Origin: Blautia glucerasea
GTDB lineage: Bacteria; Bacillota; Clostridia; Lachnospirales; Lachnospiraceae
Reading direction: 5' to 3'
Length of the DNA: 64,000 bases
NCBI RefSeq assembly: GCF_013304385.1
Contig: NZ_JAAITU010000014.1
Location: 1 to 64,000 of the forward strand
Under the pieces are notes generated by a model. It saw only the letters and a list, made by a program, of their open reading frames with translations. It searched no databases and had not been told where the DNA came from. Position 1 is the stretch's first letter. The number at the start of each line of letters is the position of its first letter. This document shows, piece by piece, positions 1 through 37,613 of this stretch. Position numbers and translations under genes: made by a program.

Positions 1-85
1 CAATTCATCTCCCACCTGTAGAGGAAGGAGAATTCTTGCTATATATTATGTTAAAATTTACCCCCACATGTTGTATCTTCGTATT

Positions 86-31601: not shown

Positions 31602-33343
31602 TGAAAAAAAAATCAATGAATCTGATAACTGCAGTTGCAGTATTAGTCGTTTTAAGCGGTGCATATGTAGGTGTTAAGACATATGTGGCCAAACAGGAAG
31701 AAAAAGAAAATGCAGAAGAGGAAGAGGAGAAAACCCAGGTTTTCTCCATTTCCTCCGAGGATGTTCAGTCAATCAAATTTGTGATTGATAAGAAAGAAGT
31801 TACTTTTGAAAAAAATAATGATGAATGGGTTAAAAGCGATGAAAGGGACTTTCCGGTAGATCAGGATAAACTGATTGAGGCCATAGGAAGTCTGAATAAT
31901 GTTGAAGTGGATCGTGTTCTGGACAATGTTACAGATACTACGGAGTATGGCTTAGATAATCCTACAAATACTATTACGATAACTGATAAAGATGGTAAAG
32001 AGACAGTACTGCATGTGGGAATGGAAAATGCATCTACAAGTCAGTATTATGTAGAAAATGGTGAAGATGAGTCAAAAATTTATGTTGTAGCAGATTCAGT
32101 ATTCCAGCCATTTATGAAGACCTTGTATGATTATGCAAAAGCTGGAACATTCCCTGTTATAGATTCTTCAACGGTCAGCAATGTTACAGTTGATGAAAAT
32201 GATGATAGTTACACTTTGACCAAAGATGATAATACTGGGCTTTGGAATATCCAGGATAAGGACGGGGCCGAGAAAGCAGACTCCGCAAAAGTCAGCAGTC
32301 TTACTTCATCGATTGCAAGCATTGCTTATGGATCATTTGTAAATTACAATTGTAAAGATCTTTCAGAGTATGGTCTGGATAAACCTTATGGAACTATTAC
32401 CATTGATTATCAGGAGAAAGTGGAGGAGAAAAGTGATTCTTCAGAAGATGGAGATGCATCTGAAGAAAATTCCACAGATGAGCAGGACACTACAGAAGAC
32501 AAGAAAGATATCTCCGCTACGGATTCTACAGAAGATAAGGATGATGCCTCTGCTGTAGATTCTACAGAAGAAGATACCTCCGCTACGGATTCTACAGAGA
32601 AAAAAGATACCTCTGTTACGGATTCATCAGATACTCAGACTAGAATGGTGAATCGTGAGATGACAATTCTTGTAGGTGATCAGTCTGATGATGACGGAAG
32701 ATATGTAATGGTAAATAACAGTAAAGAAATATACACTATCTCAAATGATACATTATCTGTATTCCTTGGAAAGACAAAAGAAGATTTCTGGGATATGACA
32801 GTAAGCTATCTTTCTGTAAACAATCTTGAAAGCTTGCAGGCAGAATATCAGGGAGAGACGCATGTAATTGATGTTTCACGTGAAACATCTGAGGATAATA
32901 GTGGTGATGATTCTTCCACAACAAGTACTACAACCTTAAGCTATCAGCTGGATGGAACAGAATTGGATGACAGCACTCCATTTACTACATTTTATAATAA
33001 GCTGATTAATATGACCGGACAGAAACGACTGACGGAAAAATATGAAAATAACAATAAATCAGATTTTGATGTAGAATTAGAGGATGTAGACGGTGAAAAG
33101 ACAAAGATTGACTATTATCAATATGATACCAATTTTTATGCAGCTGTTGTTGGTCAGAAGGTGTATTTGGTAAATAAGATGACAGTAAAAGAATTGATTG
33201 ATAGTTATAAAACTCTTGTAGGACAAACAGATTCTGAATCATCTGATGAAAATTCGGATTTGGTAAGTGAAGAGAATGCTACTGATGAAGATTCTAATTC
33301 AGCAGATAATACTGATAATACAAATGGTGTAGATGTAGATTAG
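31601..33343 (+). CDS. DUF4340 membrane-anchored protein
   Basis: 580 residues. A single N-terminal membrane anchor (about 7-28) precedes an acidic outside part with repeated DUF4340-type modules (YGLDNPTNTITI; YGLDKPYGTITIDY). A low-complexity Asp/Ser/Thr-rich insert (about 270-345) consists of imperfect repeats of the ATDSTE type, and the C-terminus is again acidic. DUF4340 proteins commonly follow GldG-like genes, so it probably belongs to the exporter complex. A parS site lies in the frame at 32872-32887, encoding VSRET. Confidence 0.9.
   Translation: MKKKSMNLITAVAVLVVLSGAYVGVKTYVAKQEEKENAEEEEEKTQVFSISSEDVQSIKFVIDKKEVTFEKNNDEWVKSDERDFPVDQDKLIEAIGSLNNVEVDRVLDNVTDTTEYGLDNPTNTITITDKDGKETVLHVGMENASTSQYYVENGEDESKIYVVADSVFQPFMKTLYDYAKAGTFPVIDSSTVSNVTVDENDDSYTLTKDDNTGLWNIQDKDGAEKADSAKVSSLTSSIASIAYGSFVNYNCKDLSEYGLDKPYGTITIDYQEKVEEKSDSSEDGDASEENSTDEQDTTEDKKDISATDSTEDKDDASAVDSTEEDTSATDSTEKKDTSVTDSSDTQTRMVNREMTILVGDQSDDDGRYVMVNNSKEIYTISNDTLSVFLGKTKEDFWDMTVSYLSVNNLESLQAEYQGETHVIDVSRETSEDNSGDDSSTTSTTTLSYQLDGTELDDSTPFTTFYNKLINMTGQKRLTEKYENNNKSDFDVELEDVDGEKTKIDYYQYDTNFYAAVVGQKVYLVNKMTVKELIDSYKTLVGQTDSESSDENSDLVSEENATDEDSNSADNTDNTNGVDVD
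32872..32887. promoter_or_regulatory. parS site 1 (inside the DUF4340 gene)
   Basis: Perfect 16-bp palindrome TGTTTCACGTGAAACA, the ParB nucleation sequence of Firmicutes. It sits in the coding frame without disturbing it. Confidence 0.95.
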
Positions 33344-33967
33344 GCGACTAAAAAGCGAATGATATAGTTTTGAAATTTTCAAGACATATAAAATTTATCA
33401 GAAATTTTTGGCTTGTCAAGTAATCTGGAGTTTATCTTATCCTCAGTTTGATAAGTACTATTATAATGATGATAGGGTAAAAGCCTCAAATTATGATATC
33501 TACGGATTACTTTGTGCTATGTTATCCCATGGAGTATTTCTTATTACTCATCACTTATAGAAGTGGGGCCTTCTCATCTGAGTTAAAAAGTGATAAAAGT
33601 GACGGTGATATTTTTAACATCCCAAATTGTGTTTGAAGTCCGATATTTGGAGTGTTGTGATTTATCACCGTCACTTTTAGTTGTAATGGGAATCTTACAG
33701 AGTAATATCACTAGTACATATAAATTGCTTTGCAAGGATGTGCTGGTATAGTGAATATTAAGCAACCACCATATTGACTTGTCTGATTTTCCGTATGTTG
33801 TGTTGTCGGCAGTCGCTGTAGCCACCACTACGCCTCCACCCTTCACCTTGCATATGAGAAAATCATTCTGCGCCAATATAGTAGATATAGTAGATATTTA
33901 ATTTTCACTGTACTAGATACAAGTGAAATATATTTACTGAAACATGCCACTACTGGCATGAAAAACG
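33344..33967. other. non-coding gap with a large stem-loop
   Basis: About 620 bases without a convincing gene. A 16-bp perfect inverted repeat, AAAAGTGACGGTGATA (33595-33610) and its complement (33663-33678), encloses 52 bp. A stretch at about 33543-33580 (minus strand) resembles the 36-kb repeat family. A 97-codon minus frame (33583-33876) spans the inverted repeat and has no ribosome site, so I do not call it a gene. Confidence 0.5.
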
Positions 33968-34001
33968 TACTAAGTCCCTCGAGAAATTGAGGGACTTAGT
34001 A
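33968..34001 (-). terminator. terminator of the alpha/beta hydrolase gene
   Basis: A perfect 13-bp stem TACTAAGTCCCTC / GAGGGACTTAGTA with an 8-nt loop; on the minus strand it is followed by CGTTTTTC. It lies 134 nt after the hydrolase stop. Confidence 0.85.
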
Positions 34002-34134
34002 GGAGTGAAACCAATTTGTTTGTTATTTGAAATTGTAATTTAACGGATATTTGCAATCCGCTTTGTTACTTGTCATAACCGAATAACTATTCCACAGTTA
34101 TGTTGTTAAAATCCAGAATATATGCAAATCTAGA

Positions 34135-35094
34135 TTATTGAATTAGATAATCAGAAATAGCGTTTAAAAATCCTGATGCATTTTCCATGTGTGGAAAATG
34201 CTTGCTTTTTTCTATAACGGATGTTTCTATAGACTGATTTAGCTGCATATATTCATCGACAATAGCTTCTCTTTTATATTCAGCTTCGCCTGTTAGAATA
34301 TAAATGCTATTATCCATTTCCTGAATACTTTTGCTAATGTCGATATTCATGTATTTGGATTTTTGACTGGAATACATGTATTTGGCATAATAGCCACCTT
34401 TATGAGCTGATTCATAGTAAGCATCAATTGTTCGATCATCTACATGGAACGGATTGAAATAGAGATTATCAATAAACAAATTACTAATTGTTTCACGTGA
34501 AACAATCATATGATATATTAATGTTCCAAAAACGGGGAATTCAATTAAATATTTGAATAATTTATTCTTTTCAGAAGGATATTGCTTTAAGGAATTGATG
34601 CTGGGTGGATTCACAAATATAATTTTATTGAAACAGGTATTGTCATAACGGCAAGCCATTGTAATAAAAGAACATGAAAAACCACAAGCAATTACATCTG
34701 TTTTTTCTTTAATTACATTCTTAGTAAAATCACAAAGCAACTGTACAAATAAAAAATTAGTATATGTGATTCCAGGCTTATCAGAACGACCACAACCTAA
34801 AAGATCAATGGTATATACAGTATGCTCTTCTGCAAGACGATCAGCAGTTAATGACCATTCATATCCTGAAGAACCTGTTATTGTGTCATGAATCAATAAT
34901 ATTGGACTTCCAGATCCTCTTTTTGTATAGAAAACCTTTCCAAATCTCCAATCATAATATTGGTTTTCAGTTGCTGGAAGCAAATTCTTAATTTGGGAGG
35001 ATGCAGCAATACAACGGTTTGCTACATGGATAATTCCGGCAGCAATTGTAGTCAGAGCTGCAAGAGTAATAATTTTTCGGTTATGTTCTTTCAT
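34135..35094 (-). CDS. alpha/beta-fold hydrolase, membrane-anchored or secreted
   Basis: 319 residues. A hydrophobic N-terminal segment (about 9-30) looks like a signal or membrane anchor. The hydrolase fold follows: an oxyanion region (ILLIHDTITGSSGYEW), DLLGCGRSDKP, and a nucleophile elbow CGFSCSF giving GxSxS. A late histidine (SKHFPHME) fits the triad. Substrate unknown. It is the only gene in the right arm before the ICE to read toward the origin, head-on to replication, and it contains a parS site at 34489-34504. Its base composition is more AT-rich than its neighbours. Confidence 0.88.
   Translation of the reverse strand: MKEHNRKIITLAALTTIAAGIIHVANRCIAASSQIKNLLPATENQYYDWRFGKVFYTKRGSGSPILLIHDTITGSSGYEWSLTADRLAEEHTVYTIDLLGCGRSDKPGITYTNFLFVQLLCDFTKNVIKEKTDVIACGFSCSFITMACRYDNTCFNKIIFVNPPSINSLKQYPSEKNKLFKYLIEFPVFGTLIYHMIVSRETISNLFIDNLYFNPFHVDDRTIDAYYESAHKGGYYAKYMYSSQKSKYMNIDISKSIQEMDNSIYILTGEAEYKREAIVDEYMQLNQSIETSVIEKSKHFPHMENASGFLNAISDYLIQ
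34489..34504. promoter_or_regulatory. parS site 2 (inside the hydrolase gene)
   Basis: Perfect TGTTTCACGTGAAACA palindrome. As in the DUF4340 gene, it encodes VSRET in frame. Confidence 0.95.
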
Positions 35095-35223
35095 TACAAT
35101 CCCTCCTGATGATTAAAAAATTCTCATTAAAAAATATTATAATAATCTAAATTAATTCAAATAGCAAAAACTTACGGAGCATGAATATACGGACTGTTTT
35201 GTAATATGCATACCCAAAAGTCT

Positions 35224-35275
35224 TCCTGTTATATCGGATGCGAGGTGACGACCACTATTACAAGAAGTGAGCGCC
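35224..35275. repeat. diverged member of the 36-kb repeat family
   Basis: An ungapped hand alignment with 36027-36077 gives about 35 of 51 matches, including the GTGACG.CCAC and GTGAG segments. Similar spacing suggests shared descent; a chance resemblance is not excluded. Confidence 0.45.
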
Positions 35276-35768
35276 AAATTACTTTTGGTGATGGTATTTG
35301 CTTTGTATGTCTCGGAATTTTGGCAAAATACATGTCAAAAATTTTACGGGTTATTATCTTCTGAATAGCTGCCATTTTTCTTTGTAACTATGAAAATACT
35401 TTTTAGCTACATTATAGTTCATATTATAAGCCAAATTTGGTGAATTTACAATGTTAAGTTTCCTATTAGGATGTAACATAAAACATTTTTGTTATTCATA
35501 TCAATTATTTACCGGTACATTGTTTTGCAAATAACTGGTCTTATTTTCTCACTGCGGCATATACATATCCAATACTTGAGTTAAAGCCAACTACATCAAT
35601 AATTTTGTCTTTTGCTGAGTAAAAATTATCTTGCATTATTCGATTAATTATCGTTCAGCACGCTTTACTAAATTCATTCTGGATTTTTGTTGAAGCTTTG
35701 AAATGTATAGGACAGATTCATTAAGATTCATTTCTTTCATGAATGATGTCTGTTACTTTGGTTTTTAA

Positions 35769-35832
35769 TAATTCTGAGTAAGATATGCGTATTCATTAAG
35801 TAATTCTGATTGAGATATGCGTATTCATTAAA
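35769..35832. repeat. tandem duplication of a 32-bp unit
   Basis: Two adjacent copies beginning TAATTCTGA and sharing GAGATATGCGTATTCATTA-type sequence, with three differences. Confidence 0.8.
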
Positions 35833-36025
35833 TGATTCAAATCATGAGGTTCGTATTTGTTCAAACCCACATTCGTAATCTGTTTCACTGTTTGTTCATA
35901 ACAAAGTAACTGTTCCACAATATATCAGAAGGAACGGCACTCTTTCTGATATTATCAAGTCCGCAAGCTCCTATCCATTGCTCATTGTTTTCTACAATTG
36001 AAATAGGTGACTTATGTGATTTGGC

Positions 36026-36207
36026 TATATCAGCTGGGAGATGACGCCCACCTCTATAGGAGGTGAGAAACAAGCTGGTATCAGTGGTGGGAGTCAATCC
36101 CCCAGCTGATATAGCCTCCGGCAGGATTGCAGAGGCGCGCAGGAGAAGTATGTCATGCAATTGCATGACGCACACCTCGCAGCAAGAATGCCTCGGCATT
36201 CTTGAAT
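36026..36207. repeat. 182-bp structured repeat, copy 1
   Basis: Differs from the copy 396 bp further right at only three positions. Its first ~85 bp are an imperfect inverted repeat (TATATCAGCTGGG at one end, CCCAGCTGATATA at the other) with an inner hairpin. The rest carries GCCTC/GAGGC, the palindrome GTCATGCAATTGCATGAC and the stem AAGAATGCC/GGCATTCTT. It looks like a palindromic mobile repeat or a structured RNA. Confidence 0.9.
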
Positions 36208-36273
36208 TATTTTTGGCTTTTTACAAATTATCATATTACACAAGTTTATTGACAAATAAAACATCTTTTTCTA

Positions 36274-36289
36274 TGTTTCACGTGAAACA
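36274..36289. promoter_or_regulatory. parS site 3
   Basis: Perfect TGTTTCACGTGAAACA, between the two 182-bp repeats and about 560 bp upstream of parA. Confidence 0.95.
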
Positions 36290-36421
36290 TTATGTAGCAT
36301 GAAAAAAATAAAAGTGTTATAATTTATTAGAAAAGAATCAGATTCAGAAAGAACAAAAAGAGCAGTCTGGAAAAAGATTAAAACTGTCTTGAATATGAAC
36401 TTGACGTTTTGATTTTATAAT

Positions 36422-36603
36422 TATATCAGCTGGGAGATGACTCCCACCTCTATAGGTGGTGAGAAACAAGCTGGTATCAGTGGTGGGAGTCAATCCCCCA
36501 GCTGATATAGCCTCCGGCAGGATTGCAGAGGCGCGCAGGAGAAGTATGTCATGCAATTGCATGACGCGCACCTCGCAGCAAGAATGCCTCGGCATTCTTG
36601 AAT
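36422..36603. repeat. 182-bp structured repeat, copy 2
   Basis: Direct repeat of 36026-36207 with no insertions or deletions and three substitutions. One of them restores pairing in the first stem (GACTCCCACC opposite GGTGGGAGTC), so copy 2 folds better than copy 1. Confidence 0.9.
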
Positions 36604-36845
36604 GACGTGTGCCAAGGTCTTTCATCTACTTATGAGCAAACTCATGTGGAGTTAGACTTGTACTAGTATCATGATATATAGTTGCTGAGTTCAAACATTC
36701 ATGATAATATAAGTACAACAGTTTATGTGAACATATATATTTGCAGATCGAACTGTAATGTAAGTCAAAAAATTAATTCTTGATTTTGGTATCAAAAGGA
36801 AATAGGGGAGTTTAAATAGAAGTAACACAAGAAGGAGGAAGAGCA

Positions 36846-37613
36846 TTGGGGAGAATTATAGCTGTTGCCAACCAAAAAGGTGGCGTAGGCAAGTCTACAA
36901 CAGCAATTAACCTTTCAGCGTGTCTTGCCGAATGGGGGAAAAAGGTTCTTACAATAGACATTGATCCGCAGGGAAATACTACCAGTGGATTAGGTGTTGA
37001 TAAAAACTCAACAGAGAATACTTTGTATGAACTTCTGTTAAATGAAGCAGAAATAGAAAATACAATTGTGAAAGATGTGGTACAGAACGTGGATCTGATA
37101 CCATCAAATATTAATCTTTCGGGTGCAGAAATAGAACTGGTTGGTATTGATGAAAAAGAGTATATATTAAAAAAGATTATAGATAAAGTAAGAGATAATT
37201 ATGATTATATTATCATGGATTGTCCCCCTTCATTGAATATGCTTACAATCAATGCATTGACAGCTGCTACTTCTGTACTGGTACCTATTCAGTGCGAATA
37301 TTATGCGTTGGAGGGACTGTCACAGCTGATCCATACGATTGAATTGGTAAAAGACAGATTGAATAATTCTCTGGAGATTGAAGGCGTTGTATTTACCATG
37401 TATGACGCAAGGACAAATTTGTCGTTACAGGTAGTAGAAAATGTAAAGGATAATCTGGATCAGAATATCTATAAAACTATTATTCCAAGAAATGTCAGAC
37501 TGGCAGAAGCTCCCAGCTATGGTCAGCCAATTACAATCTATGATTCGAAGTCAGCAGGCGCAGAAAGCTATCGCCTCCTGGCTGAGGAAGTAATCAACAG
37601 GGAGGGTGAGTAA
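36846..37613 (+). CDS. parA: chromosome-partitioning ATPase ParA/Soj
   Basis: 255 residues starting at TTG with AGGAGG upstream. Deviant Walker A motif KGGVGKST near residue 11, then DIDPQGN and MDCPPSL. With ParB and parS it drives origin segregation and, in Bacillus, influences DnaA. The stop overlaps the parB start by one base. Confidence 0.97.
   Translation: MGRIIAVANQKGGVGKSTTAINLSACLAEWGKKVLTIDIDPQGNTTSGLGVDKNSTENTLYELLLNEAEIENTIVKDVVQNVDLIPSNINLSGAEIELVGIDEKEYILKKIIDKVRDNYDYIIMDCPPSLNMLTINALTAATSVLVPIQCEYYALEGLSQLIHTIELVKDRLNNSLEIEGVVFTMYDARTNLSLQVVENVKDNLDQNIYKTIIPRNVRLAEAPSYGQPITIYDSKSAGAESYRLLAEEVINREGE

Follow-up and report, generated by a model that had tools for sequence, protein, structure and literature searches.

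A gene-less, hairpin-forming mobile element in Blautia glucerasea and related Bacillota

Introduction

Two nearly identical, folded repeats flank a parS site in the Blautia glucerasea contig NZ_JAAITU010000014.1, of which we analysed positions 1 to 64,000 of the forward strand (hereafter the window). A first-pass annotation of this DNA attributed the likeness of the repeats to recent duplication or homogenisation and offered two candidate identities, a palindromic mobile repeat related to IS200/IS605-type ends or a structured RNA. The locus therefore raises the question of what kind of element these repeats are, and by what route two such similar copies came to lie side by side.

Results and discussion

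The two copies and their surroundings

Both copies (36026-36207 and 36422-36603) are 182 nt long and differ only at positions 21, 36 and 147, in agreement with the three differences counted initially. The following features are distinguished in and around them:

36026..36030, + strand: target motif TATAT of copy 1, in the left flank; according to empty sites part of the target and not of the insert
36031..36206, + strand: inserted element of copy 1, long form, C...CTTGAA, 176 bp, with ends fixed to within about 1-3 nt
36101..36113, + strand: 3' strand of stem P1 of copy 1, CCCAGCTGATATA; complementary to the element start plus the TATAT target, putative target-pairing strand
36114..36122, + strand: hairpin P2 of copy 1, GCC TCC GGC
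36128..36182, + strand: stem P3 of copy 1, with the apical palindrome GTCATGCAATTGCATGAC at 36152-36169
36183..36204, + strand: terminal hairpin P4 of copy 1, CAAGAATGCC(TC)GGCATTCTTG
36274..36289, strand not assigned: parS 16-mer separating the copies, incidental
36422..36426, + strand: target motif TATAT of copy 2, according to empty sites
36427..36602, + strand: inserted element of copy 2, long form, with its counterpart at C127:4748-4929
36441..36463, + strand: IS200/IS605-type left-end hairpin of copy 2, CTCCCACCTCTATAGGTGGTGAG
33491..33590, - strand: decayed relative, left-end part only, found with the covariance model (E 1.4e-5)

The flanks of the two copies are unrelated (ungapped identity of 29% over 300 bp on the left and 35% over 200 bp on the right), which rules out that a larger segment was duplicated in tandem. 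The sequence of copy 2 recurs unchanged on another contig of the same genome (C127:4748-4929), and the window pair consequently represents two insertions of one sub-lineage. The low divergence that had suggested duplication or homogenisation is better read as recent transposition.

The last of the three parS sites in the window (32872, 34489 and 36274), an exact 16-bp site at 36274-36289, does lie between the copies. Of the copies with fetched flanks, all but the two in the window lack an exact parS at up to about 1.5 kb distance. A functional link between element and parS was rejected for this reason, and the association is incidental.

Two degraded relatives had been proposed nearby. The one near 33543 is recovered by a covariance model built from relatives, which scores the window copies at 169 and 147.5 bits, but the segment 35224-35275 yields no match to it even at E 5, which leaves its proposed likeness unsupported. 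A perfect 17-bp inverted repeat, with arms 52 nt apart (33594-33610 and 33663-33679), adjoins the decayed left-end relative, and two tandem 32-nt repeats, 88% alike, occupy 35764-35827 in the same intergenic region.

Copy number and forms

A DNA search of the Blautia genome places the unit at about 40 sites, and at least 40. The 22-nt terminal hairpin has 43 mismatch-free occurrences, compared to 0 for a control. The first-pass annotation had proposed such a search, together with covariance analysis of aligned copies, and had held that a unit confined to this locus and devoid of compensatory changes in its stems would speak against its proposal. The copy number and the covariation described below contradict both.

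The copies occur in a long form (the 182-bp unit), a short form with a 53-bp internal deletion, and a few 5'-shortened or truncated versions. The short form is common too; it lacks the 53 bp that include the left hairpin, and the deletion is flanked by TGGGAG direct repeats, between which it probably arises by slippage. The unit is a gene-less, non-autonomous mobile element of about 176 bp in its long and 123 bp in its short form. A second subfamily of 187 nt is also present in this genome (C98:136254-136440, C159:819-1005 and C131:36051-36237).

The 5'-shortened copies, nested as they are, and the fuzzy right ends recall reverse-transcribed elements. In one such copy (L039) the first hairpin has been lost between GATATA repeats; it is retained in the orthologous insertion of the relative G022 (L059). 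This 5'-shortened copy is accordingly a later deletion and not the original insertion form, and 5' truncation of the kind left by reverse transcription was dropped as the main reading. More broadly, we consider it very improbable that the element spreads by another route, be it reverse transcription of a folded RNA or site-specific recombination at short AT-rich motifs, even though the TTTAT end motif of bcr repeats was once read as a recombination site (PMC6542083). In addition to the deletion in L039, the exact left end at the cleanest empty site (see below) and the lack of a group I or group II intron match in Rfam argue against such routes.

Secondary structure and covariation

The folding noted at first is confirmed and, on both strands, much stronger than chance. 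The + strand of the unit has a folding energy of -93 kcal/mol, compared with a mean of -59.0 for shuffled sequences (z -7.8), and the - strand reaches a z of -10.2 against shuffles. In the fold of the top strand, the long stem P1 closes the 5' half and encloses the IS200/IS605-type left-end hairpin; the 3-bp hairpin P2, the long stem P3 and the terminal hairpin P4, which ends in CTTGAA, make up the rest.

The RNAalifold consensus of 19 diverse members comprises 47 pairs, 27 of which show compensatory change. A larger alignment, with 54 matches of which 53 are distinct, shows changes on both sides for 33 of the 47 pairs, and 96.4% of pairs hold; 484 changed cells compare with 155 in shuffles, none of 500 shuffles equals the observed value, and the covariation score of 0.535 exceeds those of slid versions (at most 0.10). 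As the larger alignment was fitted to the model itself, the independent support comes from the first, unfitted alignment of 19 members. Wobble pairs on the + strand are biased towards G-T (134, versus 46 A-C), which indicates that folding takes place on the + strand, whether in RNA or in single-stranded DNA.

Of the two identities offered at the outset, the structured RNA is thus upheld only as far as structure is concerned, but the same signal is expected from folded single-stranded DNA. One can conceive of a functional RNA that came first, a transcribed and folded leader or spacer selected through host genes or a protein partner, with mobility being secondary or old. The massive compensatory change and the wobble bias would both suit such an RNA; single-stranded DNA under a strand-specific transposase would nevertheless give the same covariation, wobble and orientation, and Rfam provides no match. 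Searched with window 33000-37000 up to E 5, Rfam returned no bacterial family and only chance eukaryotic small-RNA models, none of them on the unit, and no match of the unit to HEARO, group I or group II introns.

Insertion sites and ends

Evidence for mobility comes from empty sites. In the relative G022, the sites orthologous to five copies (L005, L008, L015, L022 and L028) lack the element and show no duplication; four display the TATA(T) motif and that of L008 is a poorer match, while the comparison for L012 is not clear-cut. Likewise, the copies in the Blautia genome have TATA(T) at their left, L008 fitting least. In relatives more distant than G022 the orthologous flanks are too diverged to reveal empty sites. 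In this genome the element inserts 3' of TATAT without target duplication.

The cleanest empty site is found in another genome, G112, where the short form sits in the tnpA of two IS605-type copies and sister copies (L336 and L337) are uninterrupted. The joined flanks of the occupied L333 align to the empty L336 with 0 gaps over 798 bases. The insert, 123 bp between TATATC and GAGA (target ...TATATC^GAGA...), has an exact left end and no target duplication, its ends being uncertain by one C. In L333 and L334 (G112:C65 and C67) the short form has taken the place of the final TnpA residues, at the 3' end of the gene. Since it is common to the two IS copies, it has travelled with the IS. The Y1 gene of G112 that overlaps a model match had been a candidate for the autonomous parent; it was rejected, being the short form inserted in an IS605-type tnpA.

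The right end is more variable. It is mostly CTTGAA followed by T, with some shorter variants, so that CTTG is followed by AAT, AA, A or nothing. Terminal inverted repeats, the criterion for MITEs of the DDE type, are absent: the ends TATAT|CAGC and CTTGAA| are not inverted repeats of each other, and there is no duplication. Taken together, the data show a real, mobile and structured element.

Orientation and replication

Where the flanking genes of copies in the Blautia genome are co-directional, 13 copies run with the genes and 1 against them, and the right-hand gene is on the same strand in 23 of 28 copies. In the near-complete genome G067, six copies lie on the + strand at 0.59-0.94 Mb and three on the - strand at 2.89-3.38 Mb. 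With the origin placed from parS clusters for the scoring of orientation (near 3.576 Mb of 3.59 Mb in G067), all nine copies put the same strand on the lagging-strand template. Fork direction is also followed by both copies in G029 and by the single copies in G062 and G133.

IS200/IS605 elements are known to use the lagging strand (PMC6006769), and the bias observed here is what would be expected of one; since gene orientation correlates with replication, selection on transcripts could contribute. The same-strand right-hand genes would also suit the functional RNA considered above, as would the bcr repeats of Bacillus cereus, which are often transcribed within UTRs (PMC3446304). Against it, the neighbours are unrelated genes, a close relative lacks copies at the orthologous sites, and copy number ranges from 0 to dozens among relatives. 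We therefore regard an RNA function as the primary role of the element as unlikely.

Target motif and the P1 3' strand

Of 75 members examined, most have a P1 3' strand that reaches P2 and is complementary to the motif in the left flank. The two covary among subfamilies, the pairs of left-flank motif and P1 3' strand being TATATC/GATATA and, in sister subfamilies, TTTATC/GATAAA and TTTAAC/GTTAAA. IS608 inserts 3' of a tetranucleotide that is recognised by a base-paired guide within the transposon, and its target can be reprogrammed (PMC5934647). By analogy, we infer that the P1 3' strand may act as a target guide by base pairing. Its position is unlike that of the IS608 guide, which lies on the 5' side of a hairpin, since about 80 nt separate the putative guide from the target; some of the pairing, moreover, belongs to the ordinary stem of the element.

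A more far-reaching reading, which we put forward tentatively and hold at somewhat less than even, is that of a widespread, previously unnamed Bacillota family of single-strand elements whose target is set by their own first stem and which have been naturally retargeted (TTTAAC, TTTATC, TATAT) through matching changes in that strand. If true, it would mirror in nature what has been done to IS608 by reprogramming in the laboratory. The many natural insertions with co-varying motif and pairing strand make DNA-guided targeting by Y1 enzymes testable beyond the few model elements.

Relatives of the IS605 type and the putative mobiliser

The left-end hairpin connects the element to IS200/IS605-type transposons. 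The hairpin CTCCCRCYTCTATARGYGGTGAG belongs to the left end of IS200/IS605 elements; in Marinithermofilum (L193) it stands 5' of TnpA-like and TnpB-like frames, and in L206 5' of a TnpB frame. In G022 and G113, the left hairpins of IS605-type TnpA+TnpB elements are of a related kind and follow TTTAAC. Across these elements the hairpin motif is similar, not identical. The right ends differ: those of the IS605-type L193, L344 and L347 (...GGTGGGAGCATGTCAC) are unlike that of the element (...CATTCTTGAA), and no autonomous element with both ends of the unit was found.

The covariance model also finds an IS605-like left end at window 1-55 (- strand). The contig starts inside this left end, which equals that of the TnpA+TnpB element in G022, and an IS605-type repeat probably broke the assembly there. 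No TnpB (PF07282) was found in the Blautia assembly, though IS elements break off at contig ends and the end of C32 interrupts a TnpB-like reading frame, so that this negative carries little weight. On a further contig (G000:C117:1-2500, L071), a broken Y1 transposase and a TnpB-like fragment adjoin an IS110-type (DEDD) transposase-like frame. Across genomes, the presence of Y1 genes follows the element only loosely: two high-copy genomes (G098, 86% complete, and G154) are without a Y1 match, and several element-free genomes have one.

The proposed relation to IS200/IS605 is hence borne out by the many copies, the empty sites without target duplication, the fixed 5' motif and the shared left hairpin, but not by the right end. 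We consider it probable that a Y1 transposase acting in trans moves the unit, a non-autonomous element, as single-stranded DNA, the mobiliser being putative. An IS605-type element would supply the Y1 (HUH) transposase TnpA in trans; TnpA would excise the folded single strand and insert it at replication forks, with the P1 3' strand picking the target by base pairing, like the IS608 guide.

The enzyme might instead be a domesticated TnpA(REP)-type or other HUH protein spreading a REP/REPIN-like repeat, without participation of present IS605 elements. Short palindromic intergenic repeats in many copies, a perfect terminal hairpin and a single-strand orientation bias are in line with this, and several Lachnospiraceae encode long Y1 proteins of 235-283 aa (weak matches). 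Inspection of the 54 aligned members nonetheless shows no GTAG/GTGG-type tetranucleotide at the hairpin foot, the left hairpin is like those of IS605-type elements and not of REPs, and the element consists of four hairpins in fixed order. A REP-like origin appears quite improbable to us.

Distribution

The model has matches in 62 of 150 sampled Lachnospiraceae genera (about 40%), and related elements also occur in Bacillaceae. Among the carriers are Eubacterium ramulus, Mediterraneibacter, Faecalicatena, Bilifractor, Siminovitchia terrae and Bacillus sp. In one contig that was classified as viral there is a full copy. Plasmid and phage collections queried with the window sequence gave no match, and a Bacillus relative used as query against plasmids gave only matches of the size of the left hairpin.

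The Lysinibacillus version of the element (L287) contains two Rfam Bacillaceae-1 RNA motifs (RF01690; 6634-6700 and 6480-6545, both on the - strand), which suggests that a mobile element can include the Bacillaceae-1 'sRNA' as one of its modules. Repeats that fold and covary are not necessarily RNA genes; they can also be mobile DNA in single-stranded form, which calls for caution. In Rfam and the literature searched there is no name for the family, the closest described analogue being bcr1, compared by description only. The intergenic repeats of about 40% of the sampled Lachnospiraceae genera acquire a shape worth naming.

Comparison with known systems

TTTAA is the target of IS605 and TTTAT that of IS606. 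With these elements and IS608 our element shares a target motif in the left flank, a base-paired (here putative) choice of target and a lagging-strand bias. It differs from them in lacking tnpA and tnpB, in the distance between putative guide and target, and in the insertion of some copies at TATAT; moreover, the right boundary of IS608 is exact and that of the element fuzzy, and the right ends of its IS605-type relatives differ from its own.

Palindrome-associated transposable elements (PATEs) and other ends-only derivatives of IS200/IS605 are similarly short and gene-less, with subterminal hairpins and no terminal inverted repeats; they too insert 3' of a short motif without target duplication, and the left hairpin is common to IS605-type elements. 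PATEs, however, consist solely of the two parent IS ends (PMC7290912), whereas the right half of our element (P2-P4) matches no parent found, and its plan of four hairpins is preserved, with covariation, in different families.

By description, bcr1-bcr3 of the Bacillus cereus group are alike in being MITE-like, structured repeats of about 150 bp in tens of copies, with TTTAT at one end and frequent transcription in UTRs (PMC6542083, PMC3446304). They are described as restricted to that group. REP/REPIN repeats associated with TnpA(REP) are likewise intergenic and palindromic, and their movement is ascribed to a Y1 enzyme, but the element is much larger, four-part and without a GTAG-type tag. 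Bacillaceae-1 RNA, finally, is similar only inasmuch as it occurs twice within the Lysinibacillus version; it is a separate 67-nt module, absent from the element in the Blautia genome and from the model.
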